Shown piece after piece: positions 42,122 through 57,300 of a DNA stretch of 64,000 nucleotides. Where the stretch lies: the NCBI RefSeq assembly GCF_003023845.1, contig NZ_PYFT01000001.1, forward strand, positions 6,634,001 to 6,698,000. The letters run 5' to 3'. The position numbers and the translations under genes were made by a program. Each line of letters begins with the position of its first letter. The stretch's first letter is position 1. This stretch comes from Adhaeribacter arboris. Lineage in GTDB: Bacteria; Bacteroidota; Bacteroidia; Cytophagales; Hymenobacteraceae. The notes under the pieces are model-generated. The model saw only the letters and a program-made list of their open reading frames with translations, ran no database searches and was not told where the DNA came from.

Positions 42122-42175
42122 TTAACCGATTAATAAACGTTTAGAAACGGATATAAACGTTTATTAATCGGTTAA
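42122..42175. promoter_or_regulatory. 21-bp perfect inverted repeat at the recombinase promoter
   Basis: Arms 42122-42142 (TTAACCGATTAATAAACGTTT) and 42155-42175 are exact reverse complements, separated by 12 bases. Each arm contains the self-palindrome AAACGTTT. The right arm ends 15 bases before the recombinase -7 box (42191), so it covers the expected -33 zone. Likely an operator or recombinase-binding site. Confidence 0.7.
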
Positions 42176-42190
42176 GGTAAAAAGAGAGGC

Positions 42191-42198
42191 TACTTTTG
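42191..42198 (+). promoter_or_regulatory. Candidate promoter of the array recombinase
   Basis: TACTTTTG fits TAnnTTTG, 28 bases upstream of the GTG start at 42226. The -33 zone lies in the right arm of the inverted repeat and shows no clean TTTG. Confidence 0.5.
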
Positions 42199-42225
42199 TC
42201 ATTTATAGCTGAATAAGTCCTGAAG

Positions 42226-43668
42226 GTGGCTCTTTTTCCTACTTTGTATTTAAATCCTCTGGAACATCAGGGGAAAACCTTTATTAAGTTCTGGCATAAA
42301 CCCCAGCCTGCCGTGCGCCAGCGCTTACAAGCCGCGCCCTGGATTAAATACAGTCAGACGTATAAGTGCTTCGTTATGCCGCACACTCCTACGGCCATTG
42401 CGCAGACGTATAGCCATTTTGCCGGGGTAGCAACCGTGAGTACCCGCTACCTCTACCGGCCTAAACGCCTGCGGCCCAGCGAAGAAACAACTGTTCTGGC
42501 AGTTGTTCCTGCTGCCGAGCCGCTGGCCAAAGTAGCTGATTTAACGGTCGTTCGTTTAATTCCGCTGCTTCATCAAGGAAAAACCTGTATCCGGCTGAGT
42601 TACCCTTATCATCCGGAAATTACAAAGCGTCTGAAACAAAATCCCATTTGTCAGTGGCTGGCCGAGAGCCAATGTTTTGTGGTTAAAGTAAATCCGGAGC
42701 ACCTGCACCGGCTATTGGATGAACTGGCCGGAATAGCCCAGCTTTGGCTCTGTCAGACGCTGCAAGTAAAAGAAGTTTCTTTGCTGAAAAGGCTTTGGGA
42801 GCAAAGCTACCAGCAACCAGCTCTCTTTATTTCCTGTCCTTTGCCTTACCTGGAGCAGCTCTTTCTCTTAAACTATAGTCCCAACACCATCCGCACGTAT
42901 CATTCATTATTACTGCGGTTCCTGAACGGGCATGCCGCGAAGGGCTTGGAACAGATCAACTCTTTTACCGAACAACAGATTAATCAATATCACCGGGGTA
43001 TGGTGCAAAGCAAGCAGTACTCCTGTTCACTTATCAACCAAAGTATTAATGCCGTGAAATTTTACTACCACCGGGTAGTCGGCCGCCCGGAAGTAAACCT
43101 GAATCAGGTAGAACGGCCGGAAAAACCCGAGAAGTTGCCCGGTGTGCTCAGTAAAGCGGAAGTAGCCCAGATTCTGGCAGCGACCGATAATTTAAAACAT
43201 CGTTGTATGTTGCAGCTCTTGTACGCGGGAGGACTTCGGATTAGTGAAGTGATTCACTTGAAAATCACCGATGTACAATCCCAAAGGAATTTGTTGCTCA
43301 TTCGGGGAGGCAAGGGTAAGAAAGACCGTACCACCCTGCTTTCGCAAAAATTGTTACAAAGCCTAAGGGAGTATTACAAGGTGTACCGGCCCCAAATTTG
43401 GTTATTTGAAGGGCAGTTTGGCGGGCAGTACACGACCGATAGCCTCCGGCATGTTTTTAATGCCTGCGTGCAGAAAGCTGCCATTAAGACTAAAGCGACA
43501 CCGCACACCTTGCGGCATAGCTTTGCGACCCATTTACTCGAATCAGGCACCGATTTACGCTACATTCAAGCTTTGTTGGGGCACCGTAACAGCAAAACCA
43601 CGGAAATCTATACCCATATTACCACCCATGCGCTGGAAAAAATTCAGAGTCCGTTGGATAGTTTATAA
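42226..43668 (+). CDS. Tyrosine recombinase heading the cassette array
   Basis: 480 residues from a GTG (next Met is far inside). Two related N-terminal repeats (about 8-72 and 108-173), both with PLxHQGKTxI and CFV; then a SAM-like core-binding domain (about 205-290) and a catalytic domain (about 300-480). Catalytic residues: Arg338 in GGLRISE, Lys near 362, His427 and Arg430 in PHTLRHSF, His453 in LLGHRN, Tyr462 in EIYTHI; it ends SPLDSL, as IntI and many Xer-like proteins do. The IntI-specific insertion between the Lys and HxxR boxes is absent, so it is not a classical integron integrase. It reads toward the array. Confidence 0.9.
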   Translation: MALFPTLYLNPLEHQGKTFIKFWHKPQPAVRQRLQAAPWIKYSQTYKCFVMPHTPTAIAQTYSHFAGVATVSTRYLYRPKRLRPSEETTVLAVVPAAEPLAKVADLTVVRLIPLLHQGKTCIRLSYPYHPEITKRLKQNPICQWLAESQCFVVKVNPEHLHRLLDELAGIAQLWLCQTLQVKEVSLLKRLWEQSYQQPALFISCPLPYLEQLFLLNYSPNTIRTYHSLLLRFLNGHAAKGLEQINSFTEQQINQYHRGMVQSKQYSCSLINQSINAVKFYYHRVVGRPEVNLNQVERPEKPEKLPGVLSKAEVAQILAATDNLKHRCMLQLLYAGGLRISEVIHLKITDVQSQRNLLLIRGGKGKKDRTTLLSQKLLQSLREYYKVYRPQIWLFEGQFGGQYTTDSLRHVFNACVQKAAIKTKATPHTLRHSFATHLLESGTDLRYIQALLGHRNSKTTEIYTHITTHALEKIQSPLDSL

Positions 43669-43780
43669 ACTTTACTATATATTAGCTTCTGTATAATGGT
43701 ATTTAGTATGAAAATAGTAGTTCTTTTTCCAAAATACAGAAAATACCAGGTAAACAGGAAGATTATTCCTCCGTACATAG

Positions 43781-43821
43781 TGCTGATAACCGGAACAGTT
43801 CCGTATATCTGCTAGTTAGGC
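43781..43821 (+). other. attI-like insertion point of the array
   Basis: The first core site GTTAGGC (43815-43821) starts 147 bp after the recombinase stop. It has no RYYYAAC partner in an attC fold, only TGATAAC (43784-43790) and a short palindrome CGGAAC-A-GTTCCG (43791-43803). That asymmetry is what an attI rather than an attC would show. Confidence 0.55.
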
Positions 43822-44380
43822 GTAATAGGAAAAATTTGGGCTGGGAAGGAGTGGCTAAACAACTGAAATATAGCCATAAAAGCAGAAAATTAGGAGTTTC
43901 AACCCGTCTTTGACAGCTAGGTCAAAGAAGAAAAAACAGGAAAAAAGACCGGATTAAAACCGTTTTTAAGGAAGGTATTTTACCTGTTTTTGGTACTTGT
44001 TAGAATAACAATACCTGGTTGAAACGAATAAAAAATGGCTTTTATTGCCTGCTAAAAAAAAGTTTAGCCCCGTTTTTACCTCTTTTGGCCAGCCCTTTAT
44101 GGGTGTTTTATAAAAATAAAGGAGCGGGTGACTTCTCTTAGCCTCGCCTAAATGAAATCATCCCGCCTTTAGTTTTATTTCTTCATTTTTAGGAAAACGT
44201 TTGTTTCTCTTTAAAAAGCAGAGAAACCTAAAGAAGGGGAAAGCGGTAAATTTTTCCTACTATAAAGGGTAGTTCTTAAAAAATCAGCTACTTTACCTAA
44301 AAAAAGAACTACCCCGCCTAACTACACCTAAAAGACACCAAACCCCAGCCAATTGGACAAGGCGTCTTTTAGCCTTGTTC
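43815..44380 (+). mobile_element. Cassette 1: ORF-less, hairpin-rich (copy A)
   Basis: No plausible ORF. Hairpins at CTTTGAC/GTCAAAG (43908-43927), imperfect 44118-44131/44158-44170, GTTTCTCT/AGAGAAAC (44203-44227) and GGGTAGTTCTT/AAGAACTACCC (44267-44314), then attC. Its start GTTAGGCG and 3' CGCCTAAC match 8 of 8. A second copy lies at 52683. It may be a structured RNA, a promoter cassette or a terminator cassette. Confidence 0.75.
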
Positions 44381-44387
44381 GTTATGC
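44316..44387 (+). repeat. attC of cassette 1
   Basis: 72 bp: R'' GCCTAAC (44316-44322), stem ACCTAAAAGAC ... GTCTTTTAGCC, R' GTTATGC (44381-44387). Confidence 0.8.
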
Positions 44388-44415
44388 CCAATTATAAAAC
44401 ATTTATATACTCTTA

Positions 44416-45045
44416 ATGAAAACAGTTTATTTTTCGCTCATTATTCTACTTTTTTCTTCTCAATCGATTTTAGCTCAGAAAAGTAAACCATTAAATCCTA
44501 AAGGAATTTATTCCGAAATTAAGGTAGCTAAGCAGAATAAAATGATCCAGGAGCTTATTGATACTAAAACAAGTGCTAGCTCGATCGAAACAATATTCAA
44601 TAATATAAACCAGTATAATCCTCCAGTCTTGTATGTCTTTTCCCAAGCCTTGTTTGTTAACGGAGAATTACAAACAGGTATTGACTGGTATTTATTTGCT
44701 CAACTAAATGCTTTATATGATGCTAATCGGTGTTCTGATAAAACGGCAAGACAAGCAACAACTATTTTAGAATCTAAATTTAGGCCCGCTTATGAGGATT
44801 ATATTAAATCAAATAAACAGGCATACCTTGAAAGTATAGACAAAGTAGTTATGCTATTTAATAAAATCCCGCAGGACTATGATATAAGATGGATTAATCT
44901 TCATGGAATGGATGCAGTTACTACTTCACTAAGTGACGAAAAAGAAAATAAAAATGATTTAAGTTTACCTAAAGAGTCTTGGCCTGAAATAAAAGAAAAA
45001 ACAATTGGGCAATTTATTGAGGCAAATAGAAATAGTGTTAAATAA
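44416..45045 (+). CDS. Cassette 2: secreted protein, unknown
   Basis: 209 residues; signal peptide (TVYFSLIILLFSSQSILAQ, cleavage near 20). The mature part is mostly helical, with VLYVFSQALFVNGELQTGIDWYLFAQLNALYDANRC, shown here in parts, looking like Sel1/TPR-type repeats, and a Cys. No catalytic motif is recognised. The cassette starts at GTTATGCCC (44381), and the same nine bases recur inverted (GGGCATAAC) at its 3' end. Confidence 0.7.
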   Translation: MKTVYFSLIILLFSSQSILAQKSKPLNPKGIYSEIKVAKQNKMIQELIDTKTSASSIETIFNNINQYNPPVLYVFSQALFVNGELQTGIDWYLFAQLNALYDANRCSDKTARQATTILESKFRPAYEDYIKSNKQAYLESIDKVVMLFNKIPQDYDIRWINLHGMDAVTTSLSDEKENKNDLSLPKESWPEIKEKTIGQFIEANRNSVK

Positions 45046-45053
45046 ATAACTGG

Positions 45054-45119
45054 GCATAACACAATGTATAAAAAACCCTTGCTTCGCAGCAGGCTTTTCA
45101 TACACGCGGCCCGTTGGCA
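45054..45119 (+). repeat. attC of cassette 2
   Basis: 66 bp: GCATAAC ... GTTGGCA. Inner stem ATGTATAAAA / TTTTCATACA around CTTGCTTCGCAGCAGG. Related to the attC at 51638 and 56729. Confidence 0.85.
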
Positions 45120-45148
45120 GAAATTGAATAAGAAATTTTAAATACAAA

Positions 45149-45559
45149 ATGTATAAATTATATAGTACAGGCTTAATAGCACTGCTAATTACTTTTTGTT
45201 CCTGTGCGGAGCAAGGTTCATTGCAACATGATATTAAGCCTTTACTTTTTGGGAAATATGTAGATTATACTAAGAACAGAAAGTGCGAAATTGTTGAGAG
45301 ATCCCTCAACTTCAATAGTGATAGCACATTTAGCTTCCGCACCACTTGTCTAGTTGATACATCAAGGGTGACTTCGGCATTTCCAAAAAGATTCGAAGGA
45401 ACAGTAAAAAATTTAAATGATAGTACTATTATACTAAAGGTTGAGGATAAGATTTACGGTATATATAAGATTTTGTCCGATACAACATTAGAATTACAAT
45501 CTGAAAATACTTACAAACCTGTTTATACTAAGATGAAACATTACCTTGTGGCTGAATAA
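45149..45559 (+). CDS. Cassette 3: lipoprotein, unknown
   Basis: 136 residues. SPII signal with ITFCSC (Cys near 20). The mature part reads as a small beta protein with LNFNSDSTFSFRTTC and LNDSTIILKVEDKIYGIYKI, like lipocalin-like DUF domains, but I do not assign a family. Starts 36 bp after its core site and stops 42 bp before the attC. Cassette start GTTGGCAG matches its 3' CTGCCAAC. Confidence 0.7.
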   Translation: MYKLYSTGLIALLITFCSCAEQGSLQHDIKPLLFGKYVDYTKNRKCEIVERSLNFNSDSTFSFRTTCLVDTSRVTSAFPKRFEGTVKNLNDSTIILKVEDKIYGIYKILSDTTLELQSENTYKPVYTKMKHYLVAE

Positions 45560-45604
45560 AGAAGCAAAACCAACAAGAAGTGAATGTACAGGAAAATCAA
45601 CTCC

Positions 45605-45670
45605 TGCCAACAAAGCACATAAGTTATACTTCGGCTCCGCCTCGCCCACCTTATGTACAAACCGTTGGGG
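45605..45670 (+). repeat. attC of cassette 3
   Basis: 66 bp: TGCCAAC ... GTTGGGG. Stem ACATAAGTTATAC region pairs with CTTATGTAC; loop rich in CGGCTCCGCCTCG. Confidence 0.8.
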
Positions 45671-45742
45671 GAAATAAAAAACAAATTTTATGGAAAATAG
45701 ATGGTTCTTCCATCCTATATAATAACCATAAAAACCGTTGCA

Positions 45743-45961
45743 ATGATGAACAAAGGAAAAAAAACAACCGTGAATGTGTTCAAACACCTAGTACTTGTGC
45801 CACTTTTAACGACTTTTGTCTTTACGGCTTGTCAAGATAAAAAGGACGACCTAGTGCCAACCACCAAAACAAAGCCTGTTGATGAAATACGTGTAGAGGA
45901 AGAGATACCAAATACAGTAGTTGAAGAGGAAACTGTAATACCCACTGTAGTCGAAAAATAA
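45743..45961 (+). CDS. Cassette 4: small lipoprotein with acidic repeats
   Basis: 72 residues from ATGATG at 45743. SPII signal (LVPLLTTFVFTAC, Cys near 30). The mature part is a short acidic tail with repeats VEEEIPNTV and VEEETVIPTV. Directly after the TAA the same frame reads EISDVAVEK before the next stop, as if one more repeat unit had been cut off. Function unknown. Cassette start GTTGGGGG matches CCCCCAAC at its 3' end. Confidence 0.6.
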   Translation: MMNKGKKTTVNVFKHLVLVPLLTTFVFTACQDKKDDLVPTTKTKPVDEIRVEEEIPNTVVEEETVIPTVVEK

Positions 45962-46075
45962 GAGATATCAGATGTAGCAGTTGAAAAATAATGATTCTAA
46001 AAGGAATAAAGTAATTTCCAGAGCTTTTTTGAGTACCAAAATAAATACTACCTTATATAAATAAAATATTAACTC

Positions 46076-46128
46076 CCCCAACCATACCTAAAAACCACTT
46101 TGCACTTTTTAGCTAAGGAGCGTTGGGC
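46076..46128 (+). repeat. attC of cassette 4
   Basis: 53 bp, short type: CCCCAAC, stem CCTAAAAACC / GCACTTTTTAG, GTTGGGC at 46122-46128. Confidence 0.82.
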
Positions 46129-46570
46129 GTAATAGATTAAAAAATAAAATATTAGCTTTTAAATCATTTGAGTAGAATTTACCTGAGTTTTATTTGTATT
46201 AGCATAATGTTACTTTCATGTACTTCAAAGGTCGATTGTGAATACCTAGCAAATAGACTTTCTTCAGCAGAATGCAATATTATTGTTATTGAGGAGCCAA
46301 ATATAGGAAGAAGTTTCAGGCTTTGGGGTGTAAACCCTACTACTAAATACAGGGAGACTTATTATGATGAAGAAGCTTGGTACGTGTCTTTTGGTCATAA
46401 AATTGCCATTGGTGATACAGTAGTTAAAAATCCGGGAGAACTAAAGTTTTATATCCATAAAAAGGATACTGTCTTAGTTTATCCTTTTCAATGTGGTGAG
46501 AAAGTATACGAGTGAAATTACTACAGCCCAACCACGCCTAAAAACCACTCCGCGCTTTTTAGCCCAGAAC
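46122..46570 (+). mobile_element. Cassette 5 (identical to cassette 18)
   Basis: 449 bp unit repeated base-for-base at 54741-55189. Identity starts at the core site and ends inside the next core (GTTA, then TAT here versus GGC there), as expected of site-specific cassette insertion. Confidence 0.9.
46168..46515 (+). CDS. Cassette 5: lipoprotein, unknown
   Basis: 115 residues read from a TTG at 46168; the first ATG (46207) would leave only MLLSC, too short for a signal, so the TTG is preferred. SPII signal ISIMLLSC (Cys near 18), then VDCEYLANRLSSAECNIIV, two further Cys and a beta-rich end (YRETYYDEEAWYVSFGHKI). No family recognised. The same protein is encoded at 54787. Confidence 0.7.
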   Translation: MSRIYLSFICISIMLLSCTSKVDCEYLANRLSSAECNIIVIEEPNIGRSFRLWGVNPTTKYRETYYDEEAWYVSFGHKIAIGDTVVKNPGELKFYIHKKDTVLVYPFQCGEKVYE

Positions 46571-46577
46571 GTTATAT
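46526..46577 (+). repeat. attC of cassette 5
   Basis: 52 bp: GCCCAAC, stem GCCTAAAAACC / GCGCTTTTTAGCCC, GTTATAT. Same short type as the attC at 46076. Confidence 0.85.
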
Positions 46578-46585
46578 GCACCTTT

Positions 46586-47383
46586 ATGACGACAGAGCAA
46601 TACGACATAAAAACTAACATCGAAATCGGACAACAGATTTTCGAGAACTTACCCAACGACATTAGACCAGGTTGGGCTGGACTTGTTTTGTCTCGTTTTG
46701 ACCATTACATAAAAGATATTCCGACTTCTATTCTCGAACTTTATCCAATTATTGAAAACAAAGACCGTTGGAAAGAAGCACACGGACTGTTTACAAAAAT
46801 CCGAGTATTCGGACTTGAAAATAAAAATTATAAACCTGAACACTATTTAAGACTTGCAGAACTCGTTGCAAAAGTAACTTATAATGCTTCAGGACAACCC
46901 GCTCCATTTGACAGCGATAGTGGACACTATATTGCAAGTTCCGCCCTCAAAACGACCGAACATTTTGACGACAATCGACTTGAAGAAGAAGTTAAATCTG
47001 CAATCCTGTTATTTAGTCGCAACAAAAAATTCAAAGACAACTTAACAGCAGCTAAGGACTTTTTACTTTACAAAAAAATTGACGACATTCTATGGTTTGA
47101 TTGGGACCCAATCGGTGTTAATGACATGGCACCAAGAGACGAATACCAAGGCTACGTTCCTGAAATATTGGGACTTGTAAAAGCAAACGCAGGGAGACAA
47201 GAAATTGCAAAAAGACTTCACAAACTTGAAACAGAGAATATGGGAATGAGTGGAACAATTGAAAACTGTTTGACCATTGCAGACAAAATATTAGAAACAA
47301 CAGCCGAAAGAAAAGCTGAATATAACAGCACCTTGCCAAAAGCGGGGCGTTCGTGGTGGCAGAAACTTTTCGGCTCCGAATAA
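46586..47383 (+). CDS. Cassette 6: DUF1871-like protein
   Basis: 265 residues from the ATG at 46586, nine bases after the core; the frame is open further upstream, but that part lies in the attC. Soluble, no signal. N-terminal helical domain (TTEQYDIKTNIEIGQQIFEN), and a C-terminal stretch LWFDWDPIGVND ... RDEYQGYVPEILGL ... EIAKRL with the WDPIG and DEY marks of DUF1871-like proteins. Ends RSWWQKLFGSE. Its R'' partner is not found, so this cassette may no longer excise. Confidence 0.68.
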   Translation: MTTEQYDIKTNIEIGQQIFENLPNDIRPGWAGLVLSRFDHYIKDIPTSILELYPIIENKDRWKEAHGLFTKIRVFGLENKNYKPEHYLRLAELVAKVTYNASGQPAPFDSDSGHYIASSALKTTEHFDDNRLEEEVKSAILLFSRNKKFKDNLTAAKDFLLYKKIDDILWFDWDPIGVNDMAPRDEYQGYVPEILGLVKANAGRQEIAKRLHKLETENMGMSGTIENCLTIADKILETTAERKAEYNSTLPKAGRSWWQKLFGSE

Positions 47384-47395
47384 ACATTAGTATTA

Positions 47396-47452
47396 GCTTG
47401 ACAGGTTTGTGCTTCGAAAGCCCCGCCTTCGGCAAGCTGCAAAACGTTACCT
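47396..47452 (+). repeat. Degenerate attC between cassettes 6 and 7
   Basis: R' GTTACCT (47446) is good, but no GCATATAAC-like R'' partner for cassette 6 exists. GCTTGAC at 47396 is a poor substitute. A partial stem TGCTT.../AAGCTGCAAAAC remains. Confidence 0.5.
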
Positions 47453-47464
47453 GCAAGGCATAGT

Positions 47465-48037
47465 ATGAAAAATAGCTTCGGAAACATTTTTTCAATTTTG
47501 ACATGCTTGCTTCTGTTAAGTGCGGCGACAGAAAGCTTTGCATGCACCTGCGCTGGTAAGGACAAGCTAACAACAGAAAATGGATATGCCTCTGTAAATG
47601 TTGTTGTAAAAGGAACAGTCATAAGCGTTTCCGACTACAATTATTATGACACAGCAGGACTTTCACTTACAGGCTTAAAGTTCGACCCGAAATTGTATAC
47701 CTACATGATTAGGAAATATAAAGCCTATAGAATTGCTATTACCAACAATTTCAAGCCAGAATTATCACTTTCCGATACATTAACTGTTATTACTGGACAA
47801 GGGGGAGGCGACTGCGGATTTGAATTTGAAATTGGGAAAGAATACATCGTCTATAGTGATAGATGGACAGAAAGAGAAATTGTAGAATCAATAAGGAAGA
47901 GACGTACTAAAAGAAGTTTAAAAGAAGTTGCTCGTGAAAATGTGTTTTACACGGACATTTGCAGTTTGACTCAAGAAGCAAATGCAACAGAACTTAAAAA
48001 ATTAGAAAGTATAAAATTAAAAAAGCCCAGCAGGTAA
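47465..48037 (+). CDS. Cassette 7: TIMP/netrin-like secreted protein
   Basis: 190 residues. Signal peptide (about 1-26) ends at ESFACTCAG, so the mature protein begins with Cys-x-Cys, the N-terminal signature of tissue-inhibitor-of-metalloprotease-like (NTR) proteins. NVVVKGTVISVSDYNYYD, LTVITGQGGGDCGFEFEIGKEYIVY and a later Cys fit the netrin-type OB fold. Bacterial members are common in Bacteroidota, role unknown. Cassette start GTTACCTGC matches its 3' GCAGGTAAC over nine bases. Confidence 0.75.
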   Translation: MKNSFGNIFSILTCLLLLSAATESFACTCAGKDKLTTENGYASVNVVVKGTVISVSDYNYYDTAGLSLTGLKFDPKLYTYMIRKYKAYRIAITNNFKPELSLSDTLTVITGQGGGDCGFEFEIGKEYIVYSDRWTEREIVESIRKRRTKRSLKEVARENVFYTDICSLTQEANATELKKLESIKLKKPSR

Positions 48038-48098
48038 CACTTTATAAATGCCAGCTTCGGCCGACTGCCTCGCCGCCGTTTATACTAGTCCGTTAGTG
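48030..48098 (+). repeat. attC of cassette 7
   Basis: 69 bp: GCAGGTAAC ... GTTAGTG, stem CTTTATAAATG... / CGTTTATACTAG, loop with CTTCGGCCGACTGCCTCG. Confidence 0.85.
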
Positions 48099-48139
48099 GC
48101 AATTCATTCGTGACATCAAAAACATTTTAAAATAATATT

Positions 48140-48232
48140 ATGCAAGCTTCAGAAACGCCAAGAATTCCAAGAGTAGTCATAATCACCTTAGTTGTTGTCG
48201 TGGTGATATTATGTTATTTACTCTTTAGATAA
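48140..48232 (+). CDS. Cassette 8, gene a: 30-residue membrane peptide
   Basis: 30-codon ORF starting ATG CAA GCT. Residues 1-11 are polar (QASETPRIPR), residues 12-29 form one hydrophobic helix (VVIITLVVVVVILCYLLF), last residue Arg. The stop is two bases before the ATG of the next gene, so the two are coupled. It resembles single-pass small membrane proteins, but coding status is unproven. Confidence 0.45.
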   Translation: MQASETPRIPRVVIITLVVVVVILCYLLFR

Positions 48233-48234
48233 GT

Positions 48235-48828
48235 ATGAAAAGAGAAACCATCGTACTGCTTCTCACAATTCTAATTGTGATTTTAGGAGTTGGGACGCTA
48301 TTCAAATACAATATTCTAACTTTTCAAAAGCTGGCTACTAATAAAGATTTAATCGGCGTATTCAAGGACATCATAACAATTATAGCGCTAATTGTTGGTG
48401 CCTTGCTTTCTTACTTTAGATTTTTCAGCGGGAGAACATTTTCAACGAAAGCAGATATTGAACTTGAAGCTGTCTTGATTGAAACTCCAACGAAGTCCAT
48501 AATGCACGCTTTGACAGTTTCAATCATCAATAAAGGTAGTCTTACAATTTGGGAGCCGGAGGCTATATTATCTGTTCAAGAATACACAGAGAATGGTGCT
48601 CAAGAAGAAGTTGTATATGAACAGTTTTTACGGACATCCTACTTCAGAAAAGGAGAAAAGGGAGACGTTGTTATTGACGCAGGAGAAAAAGCATATTTTA
48701 CTTTTTTGCAAGAGTTCAACCTTTCGACTTGGGCTGTGACATATACAGCAGAGATTAGAAATGATAGAGGACGAATATGGCAAAAAGCTATAACGGTGGA
48801 AAACAAAGCAAAAAGTGCAAAGTCATAA
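48235..48828 (+). CDS. Cassette 8, gene b: membrane protein, unknown
   Basis: 197 residues. Two membrane helices: about 5-24 (TIVLLLTILIVILGVGTLF) and 44-65 (DIITIIALIVGALLSYF). The rest (about 75-195) is soluble, beta-rich and probably immunoglobulin-like (VSIINKGSLTIWEPEA). It may form a complex with the peptide encoded just upstream. No family recognised. Cassette start GTTAGTGGCA matches TGCCACTAAC at the 3' end (10 bases). Confidence 0.65.
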   Translation: MKRETIVLLLTILIVILGVGTLFKYNILTFQKLATNKDLIGVFKDIITIIALIVGALLSYFRFFSGRTFSTKADIELEAVLIETPTKSIMHALTVSIINKGSLTIWEPEAILSVQEYTENGAQEEVVYEQFLRTSYFRKGEKGDVVIDAGEKAYFTFLQEFNLSTWAVTYTAEIRNDRGRIWQKAITVENKAKSAKS

Positions 48829-50297: not shown

Positions 50298-50300
50298 AAC

Positions 50301-51113: not shown

Positions 51114-51632
51114 GTGAAGAACCAATATCTACAATTAGTCAATTATACCATCATTGTAATATTGTTTTCTTGCCAATCTAAGTCGATTCCCTCAAAACTT
51201 ATTCTAAAGAGAGACAACAAGACTTCTCTCTATGCATACTTTGACGAAAAAGGCAACAAAGTTTTGGGCAACTACTTTGCTGCTTATACCGACACCATTA
51301 CAGAATATGGAATTGTTTCTGACTCTGGCTTCGTTCTAATCGATAAAACAGGGAAACATATCTATAAAATTTACCCATTTGACAATGGTCCTGATTATAC
51401 TAGTGAAGGGATATATAGAATTATAAAAGAAGGGAAAATTGGGTACGTAGATTCAGTAACCTCAAAAGTTTTAATTGAACCTAAGTTCGGCTGTGCATAT
51501 CCTTTCGAGAACGGTAAAGCGAAGGTAAGTCTTAATTGTAGAACGGTAAAAGCATTTCCTGGAGATGAGCATTCAACCTGGGAAAGCGAAGAATGGTTTT
51601 ACGTGGATAAGACAGGTAAAATTGTAGAATAA
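51114..51632 (+). CDS. Cassette 12: WG-repeat-like lipoprotein
   Basis: 172 residues from a GTG at 51114. SPII signal VILFSC. Mature part with repeating YAYFDEKGNKVLGNYFAAY, FVLIDKTGKHIY, KIGYVDSVTSKVLIEPKF and FYVDKTGKIVE: the beta-hairpin rhythm of WG/KWG repeats, which occur in Bacteroidota surface proteins. Three or four units are present. Cassette start GTTATATGC matches GCATATAAC. Confidence 0.72.
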   Translation: MKNQYLQLVNYTIIVILFSCQSKSIPSKLILKRDNKTSLYAYFDEKGNKVLGNYFAAYTDTITEYGIVSDSGFVLIDKTGKHIYKIYPFDNGPDYTSEGIYRIIKEGKIGYVDSVTSKVLIEPKFGCAYPFENGKAKVSLNCRTVKAFPGDEHSTWESEEWFYVDKTGKIVE

Positions 51633-51637
51633 AAACA

Positions 51638-51703
51638 GCATATAACACTGTATATGAAAAACCCTTGCTCCGCTGCACGCTTTTCATATACTAACCGTTG
51701 TGG
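51638..51703 (+). repeat. attC of cassette 12
   Basis: 66 bp: GCATATAAC, stem TGTATATGAAAA / TTTTCATATACTA, GTTGTGG. Confidence 0.88.
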
Positions 51704-51712
51704 TACATTAAA

Positions 51713-52144
51713 ATGACAGAAGAACAAAAATATTTACCTTCCGAAATCATAAATAAGTCAACTTTAAACAGTCACGAATATGGCTGGAAAAGAAAAGATT
51801 TTAAAGAAGTTGTAGACTACGCTGTAAAAGCTGGACTTGGAGTAGTAGGTGGACAAGTTCAGTTTATGTTTCCTGATGGAACGTGTGAACTGTACTGGCA
51901 CAAGTATGATACGAAAGAAAAACTAGCAGGTGAAAGTTGGTTAAGTTACTGTGAAAGAACTAAACAGGAATGTCTTGAGCAGTTTGAAGCTCTACCTAAT
52001 AACCTAAGGTTAATAGAAGAAGGAATAGAAAAATTTAGGTTCTTAAGAGAGAAATCTGAACAAGGAGTAGAACTTGAAAACTACTTGATATTCATTCTTT
52101 ACTTTGATAACTCTGAAACAGAGATAGCTAAAAAGGAAAAATAA
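51713..52144 (+). CDS. Cassette 13: hypothetical soluble protein
   Basis: 143 residues from the ATG at 51713; the GTG at 51698 lies inside the core site. No signal peptide. Features: HEYGWKRKDFKEVVDYAVKA, GQVQFMFPDGTCELYWHKYD, GESWLSYCERTKQECLEQF. The mixed alpha-beta, acidic protein resembles small polyimmunity-type or integron-cassette hypothetical proteins, but I cannot assign a family. Cassette start GTTGTGGTA matches TACCACAAC. Confidence 0.65.
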   Translation: MTEEQKYLPSEIINKSTLNSHEYGWKRKDFKEVVDYAVKAGLGVVGGQVQFMFPDGTCELYWHKYDTKEKLAGESWLSYCERTKQECLEQFEALPNNLRLIEEGIEKFRFLREKSEQGVELENYLIFILYFDNSETEIAKKEK

Positions 52145-52149
52145 CGATA

Positions 52150-52203
52150 CCACAACAACACCTTTACGGTAGCTACGCCACCGCAAAGCCCAGAACGTTG
52201 TGC
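52150..52203 (+). repeat. attC of cassette 13
   Basis: 54 bp, short type: CCACAAC, stem CTTTACGGTAGC... / CCGCAAAG, GTTGTGC. Confidence 0.78.
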
Positions 52204-52223
52204 GGCATTAAAAACAAGAGAAA

Positions 52224-52616
52224 GTGAATAAAATTTATAATATTTTTCTGGATAACATAAAAATTGGAACAACTCAGTTTGAAAAGGCAGATGCTCCAAT
52301 GGGAATTGTATTCGGACTTATTGACTTTATAGACTCTAAATTTGGATATGATTTCATTAAAAGTTATTGCCTTAAAAACCAAATTGATATAGTTGCAGAT
52401 TATCCTGAGAATAAACTGATTTCAACAACTTCGATTAAAGGATTAAAGGTTACAAATACTAATGGTGTTGAAATTAAAGGTTCAGGGAATCAAATAGATG
52501 GAATGGATAGCGAAGGATTTGAAATTATAATTGAAGGAATCTCTTATCCATTTTATGGTGAAGAATTTTCTAATCATGTAAAGGAAGAAAAAAACAGGTA
52601 TAAAAATAAAAAATAA
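52224..52616 (+). CDS. Cassette 14: hypothetical soluble protein
   Basis: 130 residues from a GTG at 52224 with AAGAGAAA upstream. N-terminal half IFLDNIKIGTTQFEKADAPMG and VFGLIDFIDSKFGYDFIKSY; C-terminal half with FEIIIEGISYPFYGEEF. No signal and no known family. The length and lone-gene layout are like many integron cassette proteins. Cassette start GTTGTGCG matches CGCACAAC. Confidence 0.62.
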   Translation: MNKIYNIFLDNIKIGTTQFEKADAPMGIVFGLIDFIDSKFGYDFIKSYCLKNQIDIVADYPENKLISTTSIKGLKVTNTNGVEIKGSGNQIDGMDSEGFEIIIEGISYPFYGEEFSNHVKEEKNRYKNKK

Positions 52617-52621
52617 CGCAC

Positions 52622-52689
52622 GCACAACAAAAACTAAACGTCAGCCTTCGGCCGACGGCCTCGCCCGTCGTTTAGCAGAGACGTTAAGG
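52622..52689 (+). repeat. attC of cassette 14
   Basis: 68 bp: GCACAAC, stem CTAAACGTCAGC / CGTCGTTTAGCAG, GTTAAGG. Confidence 0.85.
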
Positions 52690-53273
52690 CGTAATAGGAA
52701 AAATTTGGGCTGGGAAGGAGTGGCTAAACAACTGAAATATAGCCATAAAAGCAAAAAATTAGGAGTTTCAACCCGTCTTTGACAGCTAGGTCAAAGAAGA
52801 AAAAACAGGAAAAAAGACCGGATTAAAACCGTTTTTAAAGACCGGATTAAAACCGTTTTTAAGGAAGGTATTTTACCTGTTTTTGGTACTTGTTAAAATA
52901 ACAATACCTGGTTGAAACGAATAAAAAATGGCTTTTATTGCCTGCTAAAAAAAAGTTTAGCCCCGTTTTTACCTCTTTTGGCCAGCCCTTTATGGGTGTT
53001 TTATAAAAATAAAGGAGCGGGTGACTTCTCTTAGCCTCGCCTAAATGAAATCATCCCGCCTTTAGTTTTATTTATTCATTTTTAGGAAAACGTTTGTTTC
53101 TCTTTAAAAAGCAGAGAAACCTAAAGAAGGGGAAAGCGGTAAATTTTTCCTACTATAAAGGGTAGTTCTTAAAAAATCAGCTACTTTACCTAAAAAAAGA
53201 ACTACCCCGCCTAACTACACCTAAAAGACACCAAACCCCAGCCAATTGGACAAGGCGTCTTTTAGCCTTGTTC
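52683..53273 (+). mobile_element. Cassette 15: ORF-less, hairpin-rich (copy B of cassette 1)
   Basis: Same as 43815-44380 except a 24-bp tandem duplication (52815-52838, 52839-52862), one extra A in the core (GTTAAGG) and about three substitutions. All four hairpins persist. Its 3' GCCTAAC therefore fits cassette 1's start better than its own. Confidence 0.8.
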
Positions 53274-53280
53274 GTTGTGT
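53209..53280 (+). repeat. attC of cassette 15
   Basis: 72 bp, identical to the attC at 44316 up to the core, which is GTTGTGT here. Confidence 0.82.
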
Positions 53281-53293
53281 GTCATTTTGAAGA

Positions 53294-53833
53294 ATGGAAA
53301 TAATTCATAAATATCTATCACCTGATGACCTCAATCTCATTCAGAAGTTAGTAGGTGAAAAAATTGACCTTCTATATTGCAAAGAGCTTTATGTAGATGT
53401 TAGTTCTACTATCATTGAATCTCACCATTTCTCCTTGAGCTGTAATAAAAGCTACATAAACTTTCAGAATCATGAAAAAGGGAATGAAGATTATAGTTAC
53501 TATGAATTTAGCATAACTGAATCAGATACTCCATTAAGAATCAAGAGAGAAGAATCTGGGGCAATGCGGGGAGGTTCGCATGTGCGCTTGCCTGCAAGTA
53601 GGATAATCAGAATCGACTTGTTTGAGGACAAGGCCGAAGAGGAATGGAATAGTAAAGGAAGAGAGTTAATAACTGTTAAATATGATTCTGCCTTCGTCTT
53701 CCACCTATCGAATGGAGCAAAGTTTCTACTTGGAGTTTCAGAATCAATAACTGAGTTCACTCAGTTCATCTGGGATGGACAAGAGTTAATTGATAGGCTA
53801 GAAGGCTTAATAAAAAGAAAAGAGTGGAAATAA
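53294..53833 (+). CDS. Cassette 16: hypothetical soluble protein
   Basis: 179 residues from an ATG at 53294. N-terminal helix IIHKYLSPDDLNLIQKLVGE, then strands and SCNKSYINFQNHEKGNED, and SESITEFTQFIWDGQELID near the end. No signal peptide, no recognised family. Stop is 7 bp before the attC. Cassette start GTTGTGTG matches CACACAAC. Confidence 0.65.
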   Translation: MEIIHKYLSPDDLNLIQKLVGEKIDLLYCKELYVDVSSTIIESHHFSLSCNKSYINFQNHEKGNEDYSYYEFSITESDTPLRIKREESGAMRGGSHVRLPASRIIRIDLFEDKAEEEWNSKGRELITVKYDSAFVFHLSNGAKFLLGVSESITEFTQFIWDGQELIDRLEGLIKRKEWK

Positions 53834-53840
53834 AACCGTC

Positions 53841-53907
53841 ACACAACAACGTGTAAACGCCAACATCGGCCAATGGCCTCGCCGCCGTTTACACAAGTCC
53901 GTTGGGC
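53841..53907 (+). repeat. attC of cassette 16
   Basis: 67 bp: ACACAAC, stem CGTGTAAACGCC / CCGTTTACACAAG, GTTGGGC. Loop CATCGGCCAATGGCCTCG. Confidence 0.85.
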
Positions 53908-53943
53908 ACAATGTGAAATGATAAAAAAAGCTGAAGAATTTTG

Positions 53944-53951
53944 TATATTTG
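53944..53951 (+). promoter_or_regulatory. Promoter box directly before cassette 17 gene
   Basis: TATATTTG fits TAnnTTTG and ends three bases before the GTG at 53955, so the transcript would be nearly leaderless. No clear -33 TTTG at the usual distance. Confidence 0.5.
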
Positions 53952-53954
53952 GTA

Positions 53955-54482
53955 GTGAACAAATCAACAGAATATCTTCAGGACTTTGAAGTTGACAAGC
54001 TGACAAATTCCCTGGAAAATAGAATAACCAAAGACAGCTTTCCAACAGAGATAACTTTCCTGACTAAGAACGACTTAAAAACCATTACTAAGAAGAATGG
54101 CTGGGCTTTCAACTGGAAAGCAGAATTTACTTTAAATGACAGGGAAGTTTACAAACTAACCATTGTAAATAACCCGACCATCATTCAAGGACTGGTAAGC
54201 TTGACAATAAAACCCGACCATGTTTTCCTAAACTTACTGGAAAGTGCCCCTTTTAACATCGGACAAAATAAAGTATATGCTGGTGTTCCAGGCAATTTAG
54301 TTGCTTTTGCCTGCAAACTTTCCTTCGGAAGAGGCGGAGACGGCTTTGTTTCCTTTCAGGCTAAAACCAAACTTATCGACCATTACGTTAAAACATTAGG
54401 AGCCCTGCATGCGGGCGGTCATCTAATGGTAATCGATGCGCTTGCTGCACAGAAATTAATTGACAAATATTTTAAATCTTAA
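53955..54482 (+). CDS. Cassette 17, gene a: GNAT-like acetyltransferase, possible toxin
   Basis: 175 residues from the GTG at 53955. The C-terminal half looks like a GNAT fold: VYAGVPGNLVAFACKLSFG (acetyl-CoA loop region), GFVSFQAKTKLIDHYVKTLGA, and AAQKLIDKYF. The N-terminal half (LTKNDLKTITKKNGWAFNWK) is unassigned. The next gene, 4 bases on, encodes a 58-residue helical protein, as in GNAT toxin or modifier modules. Own -7 box just upstream. Toxin role is inference. Confidence 0.6.
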   Translation: MNKSTEYLQDFEVDKLTNSLENRITKDSFPTEITFLTKNDLKTITKKNGWAFNWKAEFTLNDREVYKLTIVNNPTIIQGLVSLTIKPDHVFLNLLESAPFNIGQNKVYAGVPGNLVAFACKLSFGRGGDGFVSFQAKTKLIDHYVKTLGALHAGGHLMVIDALAAQKLIDKYFKS

Positions 54483-54486
54483 GACT

Positions 54487-54663
54487 ATGGGACTAATAAG
54501 AGAACCGGATGATATTAACTTAAATATTCAAAGTAAGCCTTTGACTCGGGAAGAAGAAGAAAGGTTAAGCCAATTCATTAAAGAGCGGAAACAGGAAATA
54601 GAAAAAAAGAAACACTTTGCCCAACAAAAGCTTTATGGCAGCCGGGCTGCACGGCGGAATTAA
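54487..54663 (+). CDS. Cassette 17, gene b: small partner (antitoxin-like)
   Basis: 58 residues from the ATG at 54487. Reads GLIREPDDINLNIQSKPLT, then a helix EEERLSQFIKERKQEIEKKK and a basic end GSRAARRN. Similar small proteins with a (P/K)PLT-EE pattern follow GNAT-like genes in other bacteria. Four bases separate it from gene a, indicating coupling. Probable partner or antidote. Confidence 0.55.
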   Translation: MGLIREPDDINLNIQSKPLTREEEERLSQFIKERKQEIEKKKHFAQQKLYGSRAARRN

Positions 54664-54689
54664 AGCTTATCTTTTCTACTTAGCAATTT

Positions 54690-54747
54690 TGTATTGACAC
54701 TAATCTCAAGTAAATTCCCGGCCGACCACAAAGCCTAACCGTTGGGC
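54690..54747 (+). repeat. Degenerate attC between cassettes 17 and 18
   Basis: R' GTTGGGC (54741) is intact, but no GCCCAAC-type R'' partner for cassette 17 exists; only AAGCCTAACC precedes the core. Confidence 0.45.
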
Positions 54748-55189
54748 GTAATAGATTAAAAAATAAAATATTAGCTTTTAAATCATTTGAGTAGAATTTA
54801 CCTGAGTTTTATTTGTATTAGCATAATGTTACTTTCATGTACTTCAAAGGTCGATTGTGAATACCTAGCAAATAGACTTTCTTCAGCAGAATGCAATATT
54901 ATTGTTATTGAGGAGCCAAATATAGGAAGAAGTTTCAGGCTTTGGGGTGTAAACCCTACTACTAAATACAGGGAGACTTATTATGATGAAGAAGCTTGGT
55001 ACGTGTCTTTTGGTCATAAAATTGCCATTGGTGATACAGTAGTTAAAAATCCGGGAGAACTAAAGTTTTATATCCATAAAAAGGATACTGTCTTAGTTTA
55101 TCCTTTTCAATGTGGTGAGAAAGTATACGAGTGAAATTACTACAGCCCAACCACGCCTAAAAACCACTCCGCGCTTTTTAGCCCAGAAC
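54741..55189 (+). mobile_element. Cassette 18 (identical to cassette 5)
   Basis: Exact 449-bp copy of 46122-46570, next to a different upstream sequence and a different following core (GTTAGGC). Confidence 0.9.
54787..55134 (+). CDS. Cassette 18: lipoprotein, second copy
   Basis: Same 115-residue TTG-start lipoprotein as at 46168, with no substitution. SPII signal ISIMLLSC. The identity, including non-coding ends, points to recent duplication or repeated capture. See 46168 for details. Confidence 0.7.
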   Translation: MSRIYLSFICISIMLLSCTSKVDCEYLANRLSSAECNIIVIEEPNIGRSFRLWGVNPTTKYRETYYDEEAWYVSFGHKIAIGDTVVKNPGELKFYIHKKDTVLVYPFQCGEKVYE

Positions 55190-55196
55190 GTTAGGC
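55145..55196 (+). repeat. attC of cassette 18
   Basis: 52 bp, as at 46526, but ending GTTAGGC. Confidence 0.85.
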
Positions 55197-55209
55197 ACAA
55201 TTGTAAATA

Positions 55210-55887
55210 ATGAAAAGAAAAACTACAATACTTTATTTACTTCTCATAGTGTTATCGTGGTCTTGCGAAAGCACCCAATCTAAAGTACAAACTTCTCCAG
55301 AATCTCAAGAAGAAACTATCTCGCAAATCGATACTTTGAATGCGGTCAAAATTGGCCATTATTGGGCAAAACCAAAAGAAAGTTTTGAATTCAACACCCT
55401 TGGGGAGAGTAAAGGCGATACAATTACTTTCGTTACCTGTTCTGACTATGTTTTCTCACCATTTGGGGAGGTGAACAATAAAACTCAACTAAGAACAAGT
55501 CTCCTAAAAAACTTTTCCATGGTAGACAGGATTGATACATTGGATAACGAAGCATTCGAGTTCCAGATATTGACCCTCAAAAACAGCCGATTGATATTAT
55601 TTTTCGACGATAGTTCAGAAGGGTCTAGGGGTTCCTACATTCACAAAGGTGAAATCATGGATACTGAAGTCAATCTTTCTGACAACGTTAAAATAGGAAT
55701 GAGCAAGAAAGACTTCATCATGACTTTCTTCGATAACTTTCCAGATGAGGCACTGAGTACCTACAACCACTTTGTCTTTGAGTCATGCGTCACGGATATT
55801 TGGCACACCTATACTTTTACTGGCGACAAATTACAATCGATAAAATTTACAACTGACAGTTATTGGGTAGTAGATTACATGAAATAA
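55210..55887 (+). CDS. Cassette 19: lipoprotein, unknown
   Basis: 225 residues. SPII signal VLSWSC (Cys near 18). Mature protein with YWAKPKESFEFNTLGESKGD, IMDTEVNLSDNVKIGMSKKD and WHTYTFTGDKLQSIKF. The second half (IGMSKKDFIMTFFDNF) resembles SmpA/BamE-like or DUF-type beta-hairpin modules, but weakly. Cassette start GTTAGGCAC matches GTGCATAAC at 8 of 9 bases. Confidence 0.66.
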   Translation: MKRKTTILYLLLIVLSWSCESTQSKVQTSPESQEETISQIDTLNAVKIGHYWAKPKESFEFNTLGESKGDTITFVTCSDYVFSPFGEVNNKTQLRTSLLKNFSMVDRIDTLDNEAFEFQILTLKNSRLILFFDDSSEGSRGSYIHKGEIMDTEVNLSDNVKIGMSKKDFIMTFFDNFPDEALSTYNHFVFESCVTDIWHTYTFTGDKLQSIKFTTDSYWVVDYMK

Positions 55888-55898
55888 AAAACAACAGT

Positions 55899-55966
55899 GC
55901 ATAACAAGGTATAAAAGTCAGCTTCGGCCGACGGCCTTGCCAACCGTTTATACGAGGGCGTTATAT
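55899..55966 (+). repeat. attC of cassette 19
   Basis: 68 bp: GCATAAC, stem GGTATAAAAGTCAGC / CCGTTTATACGAG, GTTATAT. Confidence 0.82.
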
Positions 55967-56029
55967 GCCATTTTCAATGAAAGTGCTTCAGGATAGTACC
56001 TATTTCTGATTAAACTTCTTTCAAGGCGG

Positions 56030-56060
56030 TTTCACTTTAGTGCAACTTTTTCTATCTTTG
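56030..56060 (+). promoter_or_regulatory. Promoter of the cassette 20 toxin-antitoxin pair
   Basis: TTTC (56030-56033), 19 bases, then TATCTTTG (56053-56060), close to the TTTG-N19-TAnnTTTG consensus. The -7 box ends four bases before the GTG start, again nearly leaderless. Confidence 0.6.
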
Positions 56061-56064
56061 CTTT

Positions 56065-56415
56065 GTGGATAATAAAAAGAAGCACCGAAACATCATTTTC
56101 TATAAGAACTACTTTGAGGAATTCTTTATAAAACAGCGGGACAAGGTGAAGGATAAAATTATCTGGACTTTCGACTTGATAGAAAATCTTCCTAGAGTTC
56201 CGGAAACATATCTCAAGCATATGGAGAACACGGAAGGGCTCTTTGAGATTCGGGTTCAGCACGGAAGCGACATCTACCGGATTTTCTGCTTCTTCGACCA
56301 AGGCCAGTTAGTTGTTTTAGCCAATGGCTTTCAATAGAAAACACAGAAAACACCCAAGCAAGAAATTGAGAAGGCATTAAAAATTAAAGAAGAATATGAA
56401 AGCAGAAGAAAATAA
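56065..56415 (+). pseudogene. Cassette 20: RelE/HigB (Gp49-like) toxin interrupted by an amber stop
   Basis: GTG start at 56065. 90 residues match the phage Gp49/HigB toxin group: KHRNIIFYKNYFEEFF, KDKIIWTFDLIENLPRVPE, LFEIRVQHGSDIYRIFCFF, LVVLANGFQ. At 56335 comes TAG, then the same frame continues with KTQKTPKQEIEKAL to a TAA at 56413, the normal family tail, in a total of 116 codons. Relatives have Lys at the TAG position, so AAG to TAG is likely. The mRNase would lack its last 25 residues, and may be inactive. Confidence 0.85.
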
Positions 56416-56419
56416 CATT

Positions 56420-56701
56420 ATGACACTTGACCAGTTTAAGGACAAGCATTATGGAAAAATAGGCACTAAAAAACGGGATGAGTTGCAAGCAGGATACGAA
56501 AACTTCAAAATAGGAGCCTTGATTCAAGAAGCCCGCCTGGAAAAAGGCTTGGCACAAGCCGAACTTGCGGCAAAAGTAGGCACCACCAAATCCTATATTT
56601 CTAAAATCGAAAACAATCTCAAAGAAGTACGCCTGTCAACATTAAAAAAAATTATAGAACTCGGTTTGGGAGGACACTTAGAACTTTCCATTAAACTTTA
56701 A
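56420..56701 (+). CDS. Cassette 20: HigA/Xre-type antitoxin
   Basis: 93 residues from the ATG at 56420 (an ATG at 56396 overlapping the toxin end is also possible). LDQFKDKHYGKIGTKKRDEL, then helix-turn-helix in AQAELAAKVGTTKSYISKIENN, as in Xre-family antitoxins of HigBA type in Bacteroidota. It would bind the toxin and repress the pair's promoter. Intact, unlike its toxin. Confidence 0.88.
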   Translation: MTLDQFKDKHYGKIGTKKRDELQAGYENFKIGALIQEARLEKGLAQAELAAKVGTTKSYISKIENNLKEVRLSTLKKIIELGLGGHLELSIKL

Positions 56702-56728
56702 CTGCCTGAAAAGGAAAATAAAAACCAC

Positions 56729-56792
56729 ATATAACCAGGTATATACAAAACCCTTACTCCGCTACGGGCTCTGCATATACTAACCGTTGTAG
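56729..56792 (+). repeat. attC of cassette 20
   Basis: 64 bp: ATATAAC, stem GGTATATACAAAA / CTGCATATACTA, GTTGTAG. Confidence 0.83.
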
Positions 56793-56804
56793 CGCATTAG
56801 AATA

Positions 56805-57254
56805 ATGAATGAAAATCTACTAAAGTTTGAAGTCATTTGGAAAGATGAGGATATAATTGAATTGCAGATTTCAGCAAACAACGGCCGATACTCAGGTGTG
56901 ACGGAAGTTTACGAAGTGTCTGATAGTTTACTGGAATTTGTAAACGAGCTCAAAGGTTTTCCTTTTGGAAAAGATAGACTAACTCATTCTTGCGGGGAAA
57001 AGTATAGTTACGCTTATTTTGAAATGGATTTCTATAAGATTAGTCAATCAGGGATATGTGGAGTTCTTATCACAATGGAAGAAAACGTCTCGACAGAATA
57101 CCGAAAAGAAGAAAAAGACAAACTCTCAATGGAATTAACTGTTGAGCCAAATGCCATCGATATTTTCTGCAAGGAGTTAAAAACGCTTGCTGAAAGAGAA
57201 GAAGGAATTGCTGAATTAAAAGGTATAGTAAAATATTCCAACAACATAATCTAA
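56805..57254 (+). CDS. Cassette 21: hypothetical, immunity-like
   Basis: 149 residues, soluble. FEVIWKDEDIIELQISANNG, FVNELKGFPFG, SYAYFEMDFYKISQSGICGV and IDIFCKELKTLAEREEG. Alpha-beta pattern resembling small polymorphic-toxin immunity proteins (Imm-type) that recur in integron arrays, but no specific family is assigned. Stop is ten bp before the truncated attC. Confidence 0.6.
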   Translation: MNENLLKFEVIWKDEDIIELQISANNGRYSGVTEVYEVSDSLLEFVNELKGFPFGKDRLTHSCGEKYSYAYFEMDFYKISQSGICGVLITMEENVSTEYRKEEKDKLSMELTVEPNAIDIFCKELKTLAEREEGIAELKGIVKYSNNII

Positions 57255-57264
57255 AAATAACGCA

Positions 57265-57300
57265 CTACAACCACGTGTAAACGCCCTGCTTCGGCAACCT
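57265..57300 (+). repeat. Truncated attC ending the array
   Basis: Left half only: CTACAAC (57265-57271), CGTGTAAACGCC, CTTCGGC, then unrelated sequence. The R' half is missing, so the array ends here. Confidence 0.7.

Follow-up and report, generated by a model that had tools for sequence, protein, structure and literature searches.

A probable integron of Adhaeribacter arboris whose adjoining tyrosine recombinase is not an IntI

We analysed a stretch of 64,000 nucleotides from the genome of Adhaeribacter arboris (hereafter, the window), corresponding to bases 6634001-6698000 of a 7.04-Mb contig in a 7.25-Mb genome of two contigs. An HlyD-type gene and a topoisomerase gene flank a zinc-ribbon-like gene on the minus strand, an inverted repeat, a tyrosine recombinase gene and a cassette array (Table 1). 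This locus is very probably a complete integron, whose integrase would be the adjoining tyrosine recombinase, an enzyme that is not an IntI and has no I2 domain. Its anatomy is integron-like, and three tests that define IntI fail. As in integrons, attC-like sites delimit the cassettes and, by sequence, an attI where cassettes enter lies beside the integrase gene. The platform, composed of the recombinase gene, an attI-like site and head-to-tail cassettes of the same direction, is conserved. The cassettes are bounded by cores and carry the signature of a circular form, and the same cassettes are found behind different attI-like sites.

Twenty-one GTT cores were identified, from 43815 to 56786. 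They bound 21 cassettes, of which 20 are complete (449-885 nt) and the last is truncated. An earlier reading of this DNA made from the sequence only had counted 21 head-to-tail cassettes; the cores and their direction are as it described, with the reservation that the last cassette is incomplete. The same reading had all cargo as short plus-strand open reading frames (ORFs), but cassette 1 and its copy have no clear ORF and one cassette has two. Of ten cassette proteins scanned, seven have no Pfam match at E 0.01 and one is a WG repeat protein. The other two, the products of the Gp49-like and HTH_3 ORFs of cassette 20, resemble a toxin-antitoxin pair.

A cassette enters an integron as a circle, and the expected partner of its start is therefore its own distal R'' box rather than the box of the neighbouring cassette. 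Matching each cassette start with the reverse complement of its own R'' gave 200 summed matches for the 21 cassettes, compared with a mean of 159.3 (standard deviation 3.9) and a maximum of 176 in 20,000 permutations. For 20 cassettes, R'' pairing amounted to 190 with the own start versus 150 with the next core. Cassette 15 is the exception, its best match being away from its R''.

Cassette mobility is visible only as whole-cassette copies. A 454-nt stretch containing the cassette at 46122-46570 has a second copy with 100% identity at 54740-55193, and the cassette at 43815-44380 is repeated at 52683-53273 with a 24-nt indel and few substitutions. Full-length, core-to-core copies of window cassettes with different flanks are present elsewhere in the genome. 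Thus, cassette 13 is found at two other loci (500 of 500 nt), each time directly behind an attI-like site, cassette 2 at one (732 of 732 nt), cassette 4 at one (99.8%) and cassette 1 at three (95-99.8%). A search of the 80 loci L052-L131 (E 1e-20, half the cassette length) recovered none of the window cassettes.

Sixteen of the attC-like sites share a covarying three-stem structure supported by compensatory changes; none of 500 shuffles equalled them on four of five measures, and 143 of 500 did on the fifth. A covariance model built from these sites, R1, recovers all 16 in the window and nothing else, and misses the sites of cassettes 6, 8, 10 and 17. A model-free scan based on the R''/L''/L'/R' geometry, with score thresholds that we chose and in versions that differ slightly in scoring, found 20 sites on the plus strand and 3 on the minus strand of the array, and one on each strand in the rest of the window. 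Folding the sites one by one as single strands yielded modest energies and decided nothing. The sequence-only reading had proposed a covariance-model check of the palindromes: Rfam at its gathering thresholds has no match in the window, and our own models do recognize the sites, but were built from them. R2, a second model that also derives from these sites, produced one partial hit (11.3 bits, E 5.9) on a class 1 integron and a cyanobacterial integron region. These models are thus specific to the attC family of the window and are not general attC models. Applied to 296 genomes of the phylum, with 16 candidates scored in each, R2 matched in 2 at E 1e-5. It missed sites picked up by the model-free scan, which detects them in 23 of the 30 loci fetched, or 23 of the 28 whose downstream sequence exceeds 1 kb. 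In the model-fitted alignment, a symmetric 1x1 position beside the L boxes is pyrimidine-pyrimidine in 124 of 150 sites, i.e. purine-purine on the bottom strand. This mismatch probably lies near the place of the bulged base in IntI sites.

For comparison, we fetched 78 homologous loci with their surroundings, from the best 80 of 270 relatives. Fifty-seven are close (at least 55% identity; Pontibacter, Rufibacter, Adhaeribacter, Botryobacter and Sabulibacter), and 21 are more distant. In the window, the recombinase gene is intact and ends 146 nt before the first core, a distance that the sequence-only reading had given as 147 bp. The attI-like site recurs 3' of the recombinase gene in the close loci, which diverge from each other after TAGTT. 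Anchoring misplaced the site in L093, L098 and L104, where it was recognized by eye, and by eye a TATATTAG-like stretch after the stop codon also recurs in loci. L066 and L069 share their first cassette, with 592 nt at 100% identity after the G and 23% identity in the preceding 120 nt. The same holds within a single genome for its platforms L076 and L083 (99% identity over 159 nt; 38% before). In one Pontibacter genome, the contigs of L052 and L053 end exactly at the attI GTT, as if the assembly had split on alternative cassettes.

In the A. arboris genome, GATAANCGGAANNNNTCCGTNTATCNNNTAGTT is present at 18 places with at most 3 mismatches, and the backward control at none. Fifteen of these 18 sites have an attC on the same strand within 3.5 kb downstream, and none has one on the opposite strand within that distance. 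Examples of the 18 are at positions 125197, 2836643, 2976556 and 5674179 of the contig (loci L219, L229, L245 and L246). Several sites have additional inverted copies of the attI motif upstream. With R1, at least 76 attC sites were detected in the genome at E up to 1 (150 of 1,744 candidates scored). One intact recombinase of the family was found there; a paralogue of 39% identity about 46 kb away has stops. Judging from these sequences, the single recombinase probably serves the other attI platforms in trans. Alternatively, most of the platforms may be relics. We prefer one enzyme serving many platforms because the whole-cassette copies are near-identical.

The recombinase is composed of N-terminal repeats (residues about 6-72 and 107-175), a SAM-like domain and a catalytic domain, whose residues R338, K363/K365, H427, R430, H453 and Y462 are invariant in 12 aligned proteins. 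It is not an IntI, as it fails the score, insert and clade tests. With the IntI profile TIGR02249 it reaches 201.4 bits in two stretches, under the curated cut-off of 265, and in the whole-genome search with that profile it appears as separate pieces of 116.5 and 91.2 bits. Between the catalytic lysine motif and box II, the window protein has 66 residues. The interval is 65-66 in family members (76 of 78 measured), versus 107-108 in IntI proteins (16 of 17 measured). This spacing bears out the absence of an IntI-specific insertion stated in the sequence-only reading; the region of the extra IntI domain, the I2 insert near patch III, is about 41 residues shorter in the recombinase. The 17 IntI rows of a 79-row tree are split off by one branch (100/100), outside which the window protein falls, and 60 rows of the recombinase family and phylum homologues are on a separate branch (99/88). 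Two Xer rows of the host are long-branched and join IntI, perhaps falsely according to a warning of the tool, and the rooting is therefore uncertain. IntI membership was thus set aside on all three grounds. An XerA-type model, whose NCBI name includes 'integron integrase', gives 208 bits for a cut-off of 220. Among PDB structures, XerA is the best match by E-value, and IntI4 (2a3v) has a higher TM-score.

The linkage between recombinase and array is found in locus after locus. At E 0.01, R1 gave 225 hits in the 78 loci, all on the recombinase strand, with 224 in 362 kb of downstream sequence and one in 715 kb upstream. Among the close loci, R1 sites were detected in 40 of the 43 that have at least 1 kb downstream and in none of the 14 that have less. 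R2 adds sites at L066 and, weakly, at L056; L094 is ambiguous. In the 21 distant loci, the model-free scan (threshold 15) found 25 same-strand and 2 opposite-strand sites downstream, and 1 and 0, respectively, upstream. The circle signature, computed with R-box pairing excluded from the site score, is 5.94 of 9 in close loci versus 2.98 in shuffled ones (142 pairs), 5.86 versus 3.07 in far loci (22 pairs) and 6.00 of 9 versus 3.00 in phylum-wide loci (43 pairs); none of 5,000 shuffles reached the observed value. The covarying stems contain little fixed sequence.

We also surveyed 150 genomes of the family, searching for attC at E 1e-3 and for the recombinase at E 1e-60; as 32 attC candidates were scored in each genome, the site counts are minimum values. 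attC hits were found in 77 genomes, the recombinase in 72 and both in 66. After inspection, we excluded seven recombinase genomes, all belonging to genus g5, whose 45-48% matches cover only the C-terminal part. All 65 remaining recombinase genomes have attC hits, 12 genomes have attC only and 73 have neither. Two complete plasmids carry the same platform (L130 and L131): one is Pontibacter kalidii pls1, in which transfer genes adjoin the array, and the other is Rufibacter tibetensis plasmid 1. Their enzymes are annotated only as tyrosine-type recombinase/integrase. R2 hits lie downstream of the recombinase on both plasmids, one palindromic site being hit on both strands, and these platform copies suggest spread. 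The linkage of the recombinase clade with putative attC sites thus extends to distant homologues across Bacteroidia and to plasmids. Chance adjacency of array and recombinase is not tenable. The sequence-only reading had asked whether the recombinase clade tracks attC arrays, and it does, in 66 of 72 genomes and in 40 of the 43 close loci that have at least 1 kb downstream. Its leaning towards a recombinase of another lineage, rather than an array without integrase lying there by chance, is supported by position, co-occurrence and the conserved attI-like site.

Several observations nevertheless weigh against the recombinase being the integrase of these arrays. That it performs the recombination itself is what we infer from sequence. 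Both covariance models derive from the sites that they support, and leave the class 1 integron control unrecognized. In the host genome, 60 of the 76 R1 hits are outside the window and 16 inside. At L088, the attI junction is GTG rather than GTT. In 30 phylum-wide loci, the model-free scan gave 45 plus-strand sites downstream over a background of 19 minus-strand sites downstream and 16 plus-strand and 13 minus-strand sites upstream, and 7 of these loci have no plus-strand site downstream. Co-occurrence in the family survey is confounded by genus, and 12 of the 77 attC-bearing genomes have no such recombinase; thus, arrays can exist without it. Genome G024 has a stop-free IntI ORF and attC hits, with no recombinase hit. 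The motif CTAA-N5-TTAG, given in PMC8565304 as the SOS motif for the family, was found within 400 nt upstream of the recombinase in none of 78 loci including the window, although other regulation is possible. Lastly, the likeness of the N-terminal repeats to HARP and XPB described below is weak.

Among the alternatives, it is unlikely that the recombinase moves cassettes as duplex DNA in the manner of Xer or phage integrases, with hairpins that serve otherwise or recombine as extruded double-strand crosses. Consistent with such a mode, the attC-like sites are nearly symmetric here, XerA is the best structural match by E-value (IntI4 having the higher TM-score) and the enzyme has no I2, a domain that, according to PMC4792948, makes room for the bases that bulge from folded attC. 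Nevertheless, covarying stems with little fixed sequence and the own-R'' pairing point to recognition of a folded strand.

A descent of the recombinase from within IntI, with secondary loss of the I2 insert, is quite improbable. The two share a similar role, the recombinase scores 201 bits with the IntI profile and the sequences compared have a similar C-terminal SPxD stretch. However, the well-supported IntI rows stand apart from the family rows in the tree, uncertain as its rooting is, and the two sets of lysine motif-box II spacings do not overlap.

It is very unlikely that a true IntI assembled the arrays and has since decayed, with the recombinase as a bystander and the window array as a CALIN, the term for attC clusters without intI in PMC9024848. 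The host genome does have an IntI pseudogene at 1.66 Mb (1659408-1660301), which scores 297 bits for the cut-off of 265 and has one in-frame TAG just before box II. Thus, the true IntI that the sequence-only reading had named as a counter-indication exists, but as a pseudogene with a stop and without nearby R1 sites. It is the sole host gene above the IntI cut-off, megabases from the window. The stop-free homologue of G024 also speaks for this alternative, as do arrays without an adjoining recombinase; by eye, this homologue has YSLRH where other enzymes have HxxRH. Against it, R1 detected no attC in 40 kb around the pseudogene, and a loose model-free scan of 10 kb on either side gave four scattered hits on both strands. 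The pseudogene is thus an unconvincing source of the arrays, and action of IntI from it was set aside. Furthermore, the recombinase is at the attI end of the arrays, locus after locus, and at E 1e-40 IntI matches are missing from all but 2 of the 150 genomes of the family, the exceptions being the host pseudogene and G024, while 77 of the 150 have attC. In the phylum, 85 of 296 genomes have an IntI above the cut-off; among the 86 with a match at E 1e-60, only the host and G186 belong to the class of the host. Outside Bacteroidia, true IntI is common in this phylum. Around ten such IntI genes (L179-L188), the layout is mostly classical, with 19 opposite-strand sites upstream, versus 6 same-strand sites there and 4 and 2 on the two strands downstream, although three of the ten have no opposite-strand site upstream. 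Finally, the palindromes, as GC-rich hairpins after genes, might instead be terminators, or interspersed repeats belonging to a genomic island, but this is extremely improbable and was set aside, as pairing with the own cassette start, core-to-core copies at several loci and attI junctions contradict it.

With the recombinase as integrase, we propose that its substrates would be duplex attI, bound at the inverted repeats, and the attC of the cassettes, bound as a folded single strand. One strand would be exchanged within the core and replication would resolve the product. The I2 domain of IntI would not be used, and a guess is that the N-terminal repeats could take over its role in recognizing folded attC. 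AlphaFold models the first 200 residues as a pair of similar alpha-beta repeats, with a predicted local distance difference test score (pLDDT) of 88.5. Their four best structural matches are XPB N-terminal domains, with Z scores of 5.7-6.3 and root-mean-square deviations (rmsd) of 2.1-2.4 over 54-56 residues, values of Z below 8 possibly reflecting a common arrangement. The top match, to the N-terminal half, has a Z of 6.3 and an rmsd of 2.2 over 56 residues, and one XPB match comes from a complex with forked DNA. The XPB domain is a relative of HARP, and both bind branched DNA. The repeats may thus share the fold of these damage-recognition domains, although the match is weak. The Pfam HARP family PF07443 (gathering score 25) has no hit in the window N-terminus; in six other N-termini, it gave a single sub-threshold hit (18.2 bits, E 0.0018), which is the sequence support for HARP. 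HARP entries were absent among the matches listed in a second structural comparison, an absence that does not count against HARP, and Foldseek returned nothing at E 0.001 or better for the N-terminal model. Its best rows, reverse transcriptases with a TM near 0.2, were disregarded.

The system shares with classical integrons an attI-like platform, the GTT core, the R''/L''/L'/R' boxes of attC, the circle signature, cassettes in one direction and a toxin-antitoxin-like cassette. Unlike them, its putative integrase is a non-IntI enzyme without the IntI insert and is transcribed towards the array, with a different attI at its 3' end. A symmetric mismatch appears to replace the bulged base in attC, as far as the model-fitted alignment tells, a zinc-ribbon neighbour is conserved and the genome has 18 attI-like sites. 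In Treponema chromosomal integrons, too, the integrase gene and the cassettes point the same way, an arrangement termed an atypical structure in PMC3607928. These Treponema integrons are described there as integron integrase systems, whereas the window enzyme is outside the IntI clade. The locus is an attC cluster without nearby IntI, as CALINs are, and most dispersed arrays of the host genome would score as CALIN, yet attI-like sites occur here together with a recombinase that is not an IntI. With XerA, XerC and XerD, the enzyme has in common the catalytic core and the lack of I2. Phages such as CTX, discussed in PMC4792948, use Xer. Unlike Xer, the recombinase is linked to cassette arrays and attI and has extra N-terminal repeats.

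According to PMC4792948, integron recombination depends on I2, a domain that impedes a second cleavage and had been identified in integron integrases only; how I2 and the bulged attC bases evolved together is termed a chicken-egg paradox there. A recombinase family that apparently runs attC arrays without I2 makes this paradox testable. We lean towards the view that Bacteroidia hold a widespread second kind of integron, separately evolved or early-branching, with an I2-less integrase carrying an N-terminal structure-recognizing domain, capture at attI, many platforms served in trans and folded attC sites without I2 and bulged bases. There is a real chance that integron recombination arose separately here. 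In a portion of a complete-genome survey (PMC9024848), one Bacteroidetes species is named with a complete integron, besides Chlorobi and Ignavibacteriae. If our view is correct, integrons of Bacteroidia are far from rare and have been overlooked by IntI-based searches. We recognized no published description of such non-IntI integrons in the literature searched, whose coverage is incomplete, so that an earlier publication is possible.

Table 1. Features of the cassette array locus, in window positions
Feature	Positions	Strand	Remarks
Zinc-ribbon-like protein, 128 aa	41729..42115	-	Divergent neighbour of the recombinase; Pfam DUF2116 26.6 bits, cut-off 26.8
Inverted repeat	42122..42175		22-nt perfect arms, 10-nt loop; between the divergent zinc-ribbon and recombinase genes
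Tyrosine recombinase, 480 aa	42226..43668	+	Pfam, NCBIfam, alignment, AlphaFold models
attI-like site	43760..43821	+	Ends TA/GTT; 43785-43817 is an exact match to GATAANCGGAANNNNTCCGTNTATCNNNTAGTT
Cassette 1	43815..44380	+	No clear ORF; copies at 52683-53273 and three other genome loci
attC of cassette 1	44314..44389	+	R1 61.6 bits; among the sites used to build R1
Cassettes 2-18, first part	44381..55189	+	Cores 44381, 45113, 45664, 46122, 46571, 47446, 48092, 48977, 49762; own-R'' test, R1
Cassettes 2-18, second part	44381..55189	+	Cores 50429, 51085, 51697, 52197, 52683, 53274, 53901, 54741; next 55190
Long attC-like site, cassette 6	47315..47457	+	R'' match 10/12; outside R1 hits
Long attC-like site, cassette 8	48847..48988	+	Outside R1 hits
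Long attC-like site, cassette 10	50299..50440	+	Outside R1 hits
Long attC-like site, cassette 17	54614..54752	+	Outside R1 hits
Cassette 19	55190..55959	+	Own-R'' test
Cassette 20	55960..56785	+	Two ORFs: 56065-56337 Gp49-like, 56396-56701 HTH_3 (Pfam)
Cassette 21	56786..57300	+	R'' at 57260-57271; distal attC half missing, no R'; truncated array end

Within 1.5 kb upstream of the recombinase, 55 of 56 close loci encode a homologue of the zinc-ribbon-like protein, as do 61 of the 77 loci with more than 600 bp upstream. Going by this conservation, it may be a regulator or an accessory factor. As for the inverted repeat, the longest perfect arms upstream of the recombinase range from 6 to 24 nt in 20 close loci, and several relatives have long upstream inverted repeats that differ in sequence from that of the window.

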